From the NCBI GenBank assembly GCA_018895075.1, contig JAHIOW010000008.1, forward strand, positions 1 to 52,419: a stretch of DNA of 52,419 nucleotides. The letters are read 5' to 3'. The position numbers were made by a program, and so were the translations under genes. The notes under the pieces were generated by a model that worked only from the letters and a program-made list of their open reading frames with translations, did not search any database and was not told where the DNA came from. Positions 42,015-45,545 of the stretch are shown piece after piece. The stretch comes from Candidatus Omnitrophota bacterium (lineage in GTDB: Bacteria; Omnitrophota; Gorgyraeia; Gygaellales; Profunditerraquicolaceae). Within the stretch, counting starts at the first letter, position 1; every line of letters starts with the position of its first letter.

Positions 42015-42462
42015 TAGAGTACAGAGAACAGAGTACAGATTACAGTAAAAGATGGAAGATAAAAATTCTGTTTTTGACTTTGAAAAATTAAAGGTTTATC
42101 AAAAAGCACTTGATTTTATAGATAAGATATTTGAGATTTGTAAAAACTTACCTCGTGAATATAAGTATTCTTTAGGAGATAATTTATTAAGAGCAGGTTT
42201 ATCAATAGCAAATAATTTGGCTGAAGGTAATGGAAAAAAATCCAAAAGAGAAAAACAGCGTTATTTTGGTATATCCTTAGATTCAACAAGAGAATGTATT
42301 TCGGTATTTAATGTTTTCAAAAGACAGAAGTTAATTACAAATGATAGATTTTTAGAAATTCGTTCAGATAGCAGAGAAATTACAGGTATGATTTATAATT
42401 TAATCGGTTCTTTAGCCTAGCCTGTCTTCTGTTTTCTGTACTCTGTTATCTGTAATCCAATA
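42009..42462. mobile_element. Putative S23/IVP cassette: four-helix-bundle ORF between inverted 42-nt heptamer-periodic arms
   Basis: Left arm 42009-42050 (AGATAGT AGAGTAC AGAGAAC AGAGTAC AGATTAC AGTAAAA); right arm 42421-42462 (CCTGTCT TCTGTTT TCTGTAC TCTGTTA TCTGTAA TCCAATA); 24/28 identical over the best inverted match. Confidence 0.6.
42052..42420 (+). CDS. Four helix bundle protein (S23 / 23S rRNA intervening-sequence protein family)
   Basis: FEKLKVYQKALDFIDKIFEICKNLPREYKYSLGDNLLRAGLSIANNLAEGNGKKSKREKQRYFGISLDSTRECISVFNVFKRQKLI. Confidence 0.88.
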   Translation: MEDKNSVFDFEKLKVYQKALDFIDKIFEICKNLPREYKYSLGDNLLRAGLSIANNLAEGNGKKSKREKQRYFGISLDSTRECISVFNVFKRQKLITNDRFLEIRSDSREITGMIYNLIGSLA

Positions 42463-42478
42463 CTATAGAGATATAAAC

Positions 42479-45430
42479 ATGGCCGGTCGTATACCAGAAA
42501 ATATATTAGAGGATATATTAAGCCGGGTAGATATCGCGGAGGTAATCTCCAGTTATATACCCTTGAAGCGCGCCGGGAGAAATTTTAAGGCCTGTTGCCC
42601 TTTTCATCATGAGAAGACGCCTTCTTTTATGGTCTCGCCTGAGCGTCAGATTTATCATTGCTTCGGATGTTTTCCCGCAGGTTCTTTAATAAAAACAGAA
42701 AAAGGCTTTCATAGAATTGAAGATGTACAAGTAGGGCAAATGGCTCTTACTCATCGTGGTAGATTTAAACCTGTTATAAGAACTTTATGGAGACCTTATA
42801 ATGGAGAATTAATAGAGGTATATACAAGAAAGTCTAGTTTCCCTGTAACTGTGACTGCGGATCACGAAATTTTTGCTATAAAAACAGAAAATTGTAAGTA
42901 CAAATCTAGAGAAAATAGAATATGTCAGTGGCGATGTAAGTTATATTGTCCGGAAAAGTTTTTCAAAAAATATAAGATACAACAATTACCAGCTAGACAA
43001 CTGACCCTTAACGATTATTTGTTATATCCAATTAATAAAAAAATAAACAACATTAAATTTATAGATTTAAATAAATACTATAACCGCAAAATTAGTAACT
43101 TCGGCCCAGATATAAAATCTATCCCTACAAAAATAGAAATTGGCGAAAGATTTTTAAAATTAATAGGATATTGGATAGCTGAAGGTAGCAATCATCGGGC
43201 TTATATTAGATTTAGCTTGGGTGGCCATGAAAGAAAATTTGCTGAGGAAGTAAAGAGACTCATTGAAGATATTTTCAACATTAAGACCGCCATTCATATT
43301 AGAAAGATTGGGAAAAGCGGGATAGAGGTAACCGCATGTAATTCAAAATTGGCTAATATTTTTGAGAATCTTTGTGGAAAATTGGCAGAAAATAAACATA
43401 TTCCATTTGAATTGCAAGATTTACCTCCTTTGAGTCAAAGAATAATTCTGGATGCTGTTTTTAAGGGAGATGGTTATACCGGTAAAATCAACAAATCTAA
43501 AACAAATAGAGAATTTAAAGCTATTACTACTGTATCTTTAGTTTTAGCGGAGCAGTTAAAAGATATCTTATTACGGCTCGGTGTTTCTCCTACTTTTAGT
43601 ATTGAGAAAGAAAAGGTAGATAAAAATAAGGTAAATCATAAAATGGCCTATACTATCTCATGGCAAGAAAATATTAGATTGCATTTTTCAGATATTACTC
43701 AAATTGACAATATTTTTTATCAAACCTTGCCAATTAAAAAAATTATAAAGAAAAAGTTTTCAGGAAATGTATATAATTTGACAGTAGCAGAAGATCATTC
43801 TTATACAACACCCAATTTTGTTGTTGGAAATTGCGGAAAAGGAGGGAATGCCTTCAATTTTCTGATGGAGTATGAACGCATGGAGTTTCTTGAGGCAGTC
43901 CAGACCCTGGCAAAAAAATGCGGTGTTTCCCTGCCAGAGGCGCAAAGACAGGACGCGCAGACTACAAGTCTTTATACGCAACTTTATAAAATAAATGAAT
44001 TAGCGGCTTTGTTTTATAGGAATACCTTGAATTCTCAAAATGGCCAGGAGGCAAAAGATTATCTCTTAAAACGGGGCGTAAAAGAAGAGAGTATGAAATT
44101 ATTCCAGTTGGGTTTTGCTGAGGATAAATGGGATGCCTTAATAAACCATTTAAGGGCTAAAAATATAAGTCTTTCCTTACTGGAGAAGGCAGGTTTAATT
44201 TTGGCTAAGGAAGGCGGCGGCTACTATGACCGATTTCGCCAGCGTATTGTCTTTGCGATATTGGATATGAAATCAAGGCACCTTGGTTTTGGCGCCAGGT
44301 TTCTTTCGGCTCATCCGGGCGCGGATAATAATTTAGCCAAATACATCAATTCGCCGGAGACGTTCATATACAGCAAGGGAAGGCACCTCTATGGATTGAA
44401 TTTTGCCAAAGAGGCCATTAAAGAGTTTGATTATGTAGTGATCGTGGAAGGTTATCTAGATTTTATCCTTCCTTTTCAGGAAGGTTTTAAAAACATTGTC
44501 GCCTCGCTTGGCACAGCCTTTACCACAGAGCAGGCACGACTTATAAAACGCTATACACATAATGTGGTGATGGTCTATGACGCAGACAAGGCCGGGGAAC
44601 TGGCTACTTTAAGGACATTAGATATATTTATTGAAGAAGGGATGGATGTGCGGGTTGTTTCTTTACCAGAAGGTTTTGACCCTGACCTATTCGTGCGCAA
44701 ACAGGGCATCGAAGATTTTAAAGAAAAGATTAAAAGGGGAGAAAACCTGTTTGACTATAAATTGAGAATCTTAAAATCGCGCTACAACCCTAAAGATATA
44801 GAGGGTAAGGCCAAGATTTCTCAAGAGATACTTCTGACCATAAACAAATTTAAGAACGCGGTTTTAAAATCCGAATATATCAAGAAACTGGCGCAGGATT
44901 TACGCCTAGAAGAAGATGCCTTATTACAGGAATTAAAGAAGATAAAAGAAGAAAGGCCGTATCCGGGCTTAAATCAGGCAGCGCCCAAGAAACTGAATAT
45001 AAATCCTGCAGAGAGGTTATTGATAAAGTTAATGTTAGAAGAGAGAGAACTTATTGAGCGTATAAGAGAGAGCGTTGAGCCCGGGGACTTTCAGGATGCA
45101 AGAATTTCCAGGGTGGTAGCAATAATGTTTGAGCTTATGGAGCAAGGGAAAAAAATAGAGCCCAGTATTTTAATAAATTATTTTGACGACGAGGATATTC
45201 TACAGGTTATCTCTGAGTCGGCTTTGCTGCCTGAGGTATCCAGCCAAGATAGAGAAAGGATAGTAGGGGATTGTATACAGCGCCTGAAGAGTTCAAGATT
45301 GGCCTTTAAAAGGCAGCGCCTGCAAGAGGAGATAAAGACAGCCGAAAGTTTGGGTGACGAGCAGAGACTAGATAGCCTCAAACAGGAATTTAACCTTTTA
45401 ATTAAAATGAAGCCCAAACTTACGGAATAA
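42479..45430 (+). CDS. dnaG: DNA primase precursor interrupted by an in-frame intein
   Basis: Zinc-binding domain CPFHHEKTPSFMVSPERQIYHCFG|C (split), GKGGNAFNFLMEYERMEFLEAVQTLAKKCG, TOPRIM VVIVEGYLDFILPFQEG...VVMVYDADKAG. Confidence 0.95.
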   Translation: MAGRIPENILEDILSRVDIAEVISSYIPLKRAGRNFKACCPFHHEKTPSFMVSPERQIYHCFGCFPAGSLIKTEKGFHRIEDVQVGQMALTHRGRFKPVIRTLWRPYNGELIEVYTRKSSFPVTVTADHEIFAIKTENCKYKSRENRICQWRCKLYCPEKFFKKYKIQQLPARQLTLNDYLLYPINKKINNIKFIDLNKYYNRKISNFGPDIKSIPTKIEIGERFLKLIGYWIAEGSNHRAYIRFSLGGHERKFAEEVKRLIEDIFNIKTAIHIRKIGKSGIEVTACNSKLANIFENLCGKLAENKHIPFELQDLPPLSQRIILDAVFKGDGYTGKINKSKTNREFKAITTVSLVLAEQLKDILLRLGVSPTFSIEKEKVDKNKVNHKMAYTISWQENIRLHFSDITQIDNIFYQTLPIKKIIKKKFSGNVYNLTVAEDHSYTTPNFVVGNCGKGGNAFNFLMEYERMEFLEAVQTLAKKCGVSLPEAQRQDAQTTSLYTQLYKINELAALFYRNTLNSQNGQEAKDYLLKRGVKEESMKLFQLGFAEDKWDALINHLRAKNISLSLLEKAGLILAKEGGGYYDRFRQRIVFAILDMKSRHLGFGARFLSAHPGADNNLAKYINSPETFIYSKGRHLYGLNFAKEAIKEFDYVVIVEGYLDFILPFQEGFKNIVASLGTAFTTEQARLIKRYTHNVVMVYDADKAGELATLRTLDIFIEEGMDVRVVSLPEGFDPDLFVRKQGIEDFKEKIKRGENLFDYKLRILKSRYNPKDIEGKAKISQEILLTINKFKNAVLKSEYIKKLAQDLRLEEDALLQELKKIKEERPYPGLNQAAPKKLNINPAERLLIKLMLEERELIERIRESVEPGDFQDARISRVVAIMFELMEQGKKIEPSILINYFDDEDILQVISESALLPEVSSQDRERIVGDCIQRLKSSRLAFKRQRLQEEIKTAESLGDEQRLDSLKQEFNLLIKMKPKLTE
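42668..43831 (+). other. DnaG intein (388 aa) with a LAGLIDADG-type homing-endonuclease domain
   Basis: N-terminal block CFPAGSLIKTEKGFHRIEDVQVGQMALTHRG; TADHEIFA; LIGYWIAEGS and ILDAVFKGDGYTG motifs; C-terminal blocks NVYNLTVAEDHSYTTPNFVVGN|C. Confidence 0.94.
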
Positions 45431-45545
45431 AATGAACGTAAGTTTGTGGCTGAATTTTACCCTTGACATCTTTGATGTCAAGGGTCAATTCGCAGACGCT
45501 TCGCTATAACTTACGTCGCTTACGCTCCATAAGTTATCTACTCAT
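45416..45545. repeat. Multi-hairpin palindromic element between dnaG and rpoD (copy 3)
   Basis: AAACTTACG/CGTAAGTTT spanning the dnaG stop; ACCCTTGACATC-ttt-GATGTCAAGGGT (45459-45485); ATAACTTA/TAAGTTAT; shares AATTCGCAGACGCT and CTCCATAA.TT.TCT.CTCATT with copy 1. Confidence 0.85.

Follow-up and report, generated by a model that had tools for sequence, protein, structure and literature searches.

The intein of Pyrococcus abyssi MoaA is inserted at the radical-SAM motif CxxxCxxC of its host. There, an N-extein cysteine at position -3 faces the intein's Cys1, and a disulfide between the two blocks splicing, as does the same cysteine pair in an engineered Ssp DnaE intein (PMC3922620, PMC10663303). 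In the DnaBi1 intein of M. smegmatis, the +1 residue is a P-loop Ser that coordinates metal in the mature protein (PMC6195587). Moreover, zinc inhibits some inteins, and zinc on the catalytic cysteine inhibits the DnaB intein of M. smegmatis (PMC7360933). Cyanobacterial DnaE inteins, on the other hand, carry Ser or Ala at the penultimate position and are active without a His there, and DnaG is already known as an intein host from the same source, whose table 1 of intein hosts enters DnaG of Eubacteria and gives neither insertion site nor organism (PMC5874633). A search of the open-access literature for papers on a DnaG intein at the site described below found none.

The locus lies in a stretch of 52,419 nucleotides (hereafter the window; contig JAHIOW010000008.1 of assembly GCA_018895075.1, Candidatus Omnitrophota bacterium) and consists of a dnaG gene interrupted within its zinc finger (Table 1). 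Like the MoaA intein, the insert has an N-extein cysteine at -3 facing Cys1, but its host is DnaG, the metal is zinc, a LAGLIDADG endonuclease is present and a disulfide is putative here. With DnaBi1 it shares a replication protein as host and a +1 residue predicted to coordinate metal in the mature protein, although DnaBi1 is a class 3 mini-intein without endonuclease, employs Ser+1 and interrupts a helicase rather than a primase. In our assessment, the insert is, with a probability of roughly 0.88, a class 1 intein with a LAGLIDADG homing endonuclease that spreads horizontally and sits in the chromosomal dnaG of this Omnitrophota bacterium before the fourth zinc ligand.

Table 1. Features of the interrupted dnaG gene (positions in the window; a slash in sequences in the text marks the insertion point)
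Feature	Position	Strand	Remarks
dnaG, DNA primase precursor	42479..45430	+	ORF open over 983 aa including the intein; spliced product 595 aa
N-extein, aa 1-63	42479..42667	+	zinc domain to C61-F-G63; ligands C40, H43, C61
Intein, aa 64-451, 388 aa	42668..43831	+	Cys1 ... Gly387-Asn388; between Gly63 and Cys452
Block A CFPAGSLIKTEK	42668..42703	+	Cys1, predicted N-junction nucleophile
Block B TxxH, T63-A-D-H66 of intein	42854..42865	+	T63 and H66 invariant in 5 aligned inteins
Four-cysteine module C76-x9-C86-x3-C90-x3-C94 of intein	42893..42949	+	zinc-knuckle-like
LAGLIDADG motif 1, LIGYWIAEGS	43160..43189	+	acid E172, invariant
LAGLIDADG motif 2, ILDAVFKGDGYTG	43448..43486	+	acid D268; G267-D268-G269 invariant
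Blocks F and G, VYNLTVAEDHSYTTPNFVVGN	43769..43831	+	F-block His377, terminal Asn388
Cys+1 codon TGC	43832..43834	+	Cys452; predicted splice nucleophile and fourth zinc ligand in mature DnaG (C64, 1D0Q numbering)
C-extein	43832..45430	+	end of zinc domain (CGKGGNAF...), DNAG_N, Toprim, DnaB-binding

An NCBIfam search identified the window's DnaG by the model TIGR01391 (dnaG, 437.6 bits) and showed no intein-bearing DnaG model, while its weak matches include the intein-bearing Tes and GyrA models. In Pfam, Zn_ribbon_DnaG was matched in two pieces, with profile positions 2-69 before the insert and 59-96 after it. The sigma-70 gene rpoD starts at 45463, directly after dnaG, and dnaG-rpoD is the usual housekeeping gene order. 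Upstream, a PF05635 protein (23S rRNA-intervening-sequence type, 42052-42420) stands between a NIF3-like gene and dnaG; at another locus (L033) the NIF3-like gene adjoins dnaG directly, without a PF05635 protein in between. The host genome is a draft of 1.05 Mb in 73 contigs, 88% complete, in which the window's dnaG is the one PF01807 gene found; a single dnaG was found also in each of three further draft bins (G416, G417 and G418).

Over its residues 1-63, the solved primase zinc domain 1D0Q aligns with the same residues of the precursor and requires no gap (E 6.6e-22); we take its zinc ligands to be C40, H43, C61 and C64. Given this one-to-one match between N-extein and 1D0Q, C40, H43, C61 and Cys452 of the window's protein correspond to these ligands, and the CHC2 motif CxxH-x17-CxxC is complete when read across the intein. 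The earlier note had placed an intein inside the zinc finger of DnaG and taken the fourth zinc ligand for the +1 nucleophile, a reading that is fully supported: the residues of the zinc motif are exact, and the boundaries of the 388-aa insert before the last zinc cysteine are exact to the base. It had also proposed to look for intein-free dnaG in sister genomes, and each of the 30 such relatives read has an intact CxxH-x17-CxxC with CFG-C contiguous, which rules out that the 388 residues are an ordinary part of DnaG.

The insert exhibits the sequence blocks of an intein, and these agree, as do its endonuclease and the predicted fold, with class 1. LAGLIDADG_3 (PF14528) exceeds its Pfam cut-off (8e-13), whereas Hint_2 and Intein_splicing were both matched below theirs. 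The two LAGLIDADG motifs reported before are both present, with their acids conserved. A C-terminal Asn followed by Cys+1, as in class 1 inteins, is found here. The penultimate His that is usual, though not obligatory, in that class is replaced by Gly, so that the intein indeed ends in Gly-Asn, as noted earlier; in view of the DnaE inteins with Ser or Ala at this position, this is no defect in itself. At F:4, the window's intein has Asn instead of the common Asp. Moreover, the four-cysteine module, which may bind zinc, occurs in all six inteins known to us at this site (see below) and in some related inteins. An AlphaFold model of the first 520 residues of the precursor (mean pLDDT 61.7) is confident in the intein core only. 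Its best solved matches in Foldseek are TliVMA, PhoVMA, PI-SceI and other endonuclease-bearing inteins (E 2e-16); like these, the window's intein is predicted to combine a Hint with a LAGLIDADG fold, although TliVMA, PhoVMA and PI-SceI reside in VMA hosts and share only 14-17% identity with it.

Five additional inteins at the same DnaG site are reported here as new, two of them in further Omnitrophota bins and three in Patescibacteria; occupation of the site by five homologues elsewhere shows that the observation is no chance finding. When one genome per species was scanned, four of the five came up: DeMMO4_14 and B70_G16 (Omnitrophota), Nealsonbacteria RBG_13_42_11 and Parcubacteria CG2_30_36_38. 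The fifth, G509, emerged from a search across the order to which the Nealsonbacteria genome belongs. All carrier genomes are draft bins. The Omnitrophota bins share 74-77% intein identity with the window's intein. In all six cases the insertion is directly before the last zinc cysteine, G509 reading CFGG/C. Cys1 is present in 6/6, and the TxxH motif, the LAGLIDADG acids and the Asn/Cys+1 pair are conserved as well, block B of G509 being TSNH. The F-block His is conserved in the aligned inteins and gone from G509. Five of the six have Gly as penultimate residue and one has Lys, and VVGN is kept in five members across two phyla. Within the family, the intein occurs sporadically, in 3 of 109 genomes, and a sample of the phylum gave a high-scoring intein in the window's own genome and in G390. 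The DnaG zinc domain was recovered in 88 of 98 relatives and, besides the window's gene, is split likewise only in one bin (G017, contig C129). That bin holds in addition an intact dnaG (C85) with neighbours of the same kind, which suggests that it is probably a mixed bin and does not reflect two genes per cell.

The identities between carriers speak for transfer rather than descent. Compared with the Nealsonbacteria sequence, the window's intein is 66% identical and its DnaG 39%; for Parcubacteria the values are 58% and 39%. In every cross-phylum pair, intein identity exceeds host identity, while the relation is reversed between Nealsonbacteria and G509 (50% versus 61%). Third codon positions are less dependent on protein constraint, and between the window's gene and DeMMO4_14 their identity is 0.67 in the intein versus 0.49 in the exteins. 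For the same pair, dN of 0.13 and dS of 0.92 indicate purifying selection on the intein. In addition, the G+C content of all six inteins is 30-33% compared with 36-45% in the host exteins (0.30 versus 0.42 in the window's gene). A host tree, built quickly and with few starred branches, rejects a single clade of intein carriers (p-AU 0.023). In the intein tree, the grouping of Nealsonbacteria with G509 has a p-AU of 0.037 and that of the three Patescibacteria one of 0.159, which does not reject a patescibacterial intein clade. The tests are modest, and host and intein trees agree in direction with the other comparisons; vertical inheritance is thus favoured neither by identities nor by G+C nor by the trees, the intein trees alone being weaker in this respect. 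Taken together, an identity above that of the host across phyla, the shared low G+C and the 30/30 intact relatives point to a horizontally spreading homing intein, and the sequence comparisons support transfer between the Omnitrophota and the Patescibacteria. The insert is probably a self-splicing, mobile element, its mobility by homing being inferred from its distribution. As for a phage vector, viral contigs and phage records contained distant inteins and no DnaG-site relative.

Related inteins were found at other sites as well. They precede cysteines of IscU/NifU (at two positions), the third cysteine of the radical-SAM CxxxCxxC, and cysteines of SufB and an activase, all of which we presume to be metal ligands; others lie at PHP-protein, ribonucleotide reductase, DnaE and SAHase sites. 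The set was gathered largely by similarity to the window's intein, and site frequencies within it are therefore unrepresentative. One IscU/NifU-type protein (L066, G351:C34, 448-2376) holds two inteins, before the conserved cysteines of GNPV/CGDIM and KTFG/CGAAIA. In seven radical-SAM-like loci (L057, L060, L064, L067, L069, L071 and L072), of which only L067 and L072 have their Radical_SAM assignment confirmed by Pfam, the intein precedes the third cysteine of CxxxCxxC and thus has a cysteine at -3. The genome of the window itself harbours two more such elements, one in a PHP-type protein at VPAH/CWTPW (L144, G000:C18:36800-41500) and one in a protein reading as S-adenosylhomocysteinase (L145, G000:C37:44000-48000).

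Under the homing reading, the dnaG precursor would be translated as a single chain, in which Cys1 forms the N-terminal thioester and Cys+1 then takes over the N-extein. Cyclisation of Asn388 would follow, and the joined exteins would display an intact CxxH-x17-CxxC, as the conserved residues suggest. Because the insert breaks an essential domain of the only dnaG found, primer synthesis very likely needs splicing first. The endonuclease, in turn, probably cuts intein-free dnaG at the conserved codons of HCFG/CGKGG and thereby spreads the intein. A metal-ligand position is most likely simply where conserved cysteine codons lie; related inteins often precede other metal-ligand cysteines, and the placement may thus merely reflect homing sites. 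A homing element at a conserved codon stretch is a simpler account of the comparative data than a switch.

The earlier note had further considered a metal- or redox-sensitive splicing switch on primase, which is chemically plausible by analogy. It had missed that the zinc CxxC places Cys61 at -3 relative to Cys1. As an addition to the homing intein, an oxidised Cys61-Cys1 disulfide within C-F-G-C might block the first splicing step until reduction releases it, so that active primase would form under reducing conditions only, as expected from the cysteine pair that traps the MoaA and engineered DnaE inteins; a cysteine stands at -3 in five of the six members (at -4 in G509) and likewise in the related radical-SAM inteins. 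This cysteine is, however, imposed by the zinc CxxC, and its conservation is hence uninformative on selection for a switch. We regard such control as unlikely, and an O2- or zinc-dependent delay of splicing via the Cys(-3)/Cys1 pair as a possible, secondary trait. Slightly less likely still is the wider proposal that the primase zinc finger senses its own maturation, whereby the disulfide or zinc state of C61-F-G-Cys1, together with C40 and H43, would hold the precursor, Cys1 would be swapped for Cys+1 at splicing and the same mobile switch would have been carried across phyla to many metal-ligand cysteines. Alternatively, since in the DnaG members Cys1 falls where C64 stands in the sequence, C40, H43, C61 and Cys1 of the precursor might bind zinc, masking the nucleophile and slowing splicing until zinc is lost or passed to Cys+1. 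The inhibition of the M. smegmatis DnaB intein is consistent with this, but the predicted model is unreliable exactly there (pLDDT about 30-40 over residues 1-70), and we consider it improbable. That the intein is decaying, with splicing slow or lost and DnaG working unspliced or supplied by another gene, is very improbable: Gly before the terminal Asn, Asn at F:4 and the missing F-block His of G509 would fit, but purifying selection, the retained VVGN and the single dnaG found in the host genome speak against it.

With the homing intein as the preferred reading, an essential and apparently single-copy replication gene would owe its metal site to a selfish element, and this in uncultured bacteria of two phyla. 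If the zinc finger did act as a sensor, replication priming would await a permissive redox or zinc status, and the -3/Cys1 arrangement makes the redox idea testable. Nature provides, with the six same-site inteins, a set on which to test whether those at metal-ligand cysteines serve as switches or are just passengers.
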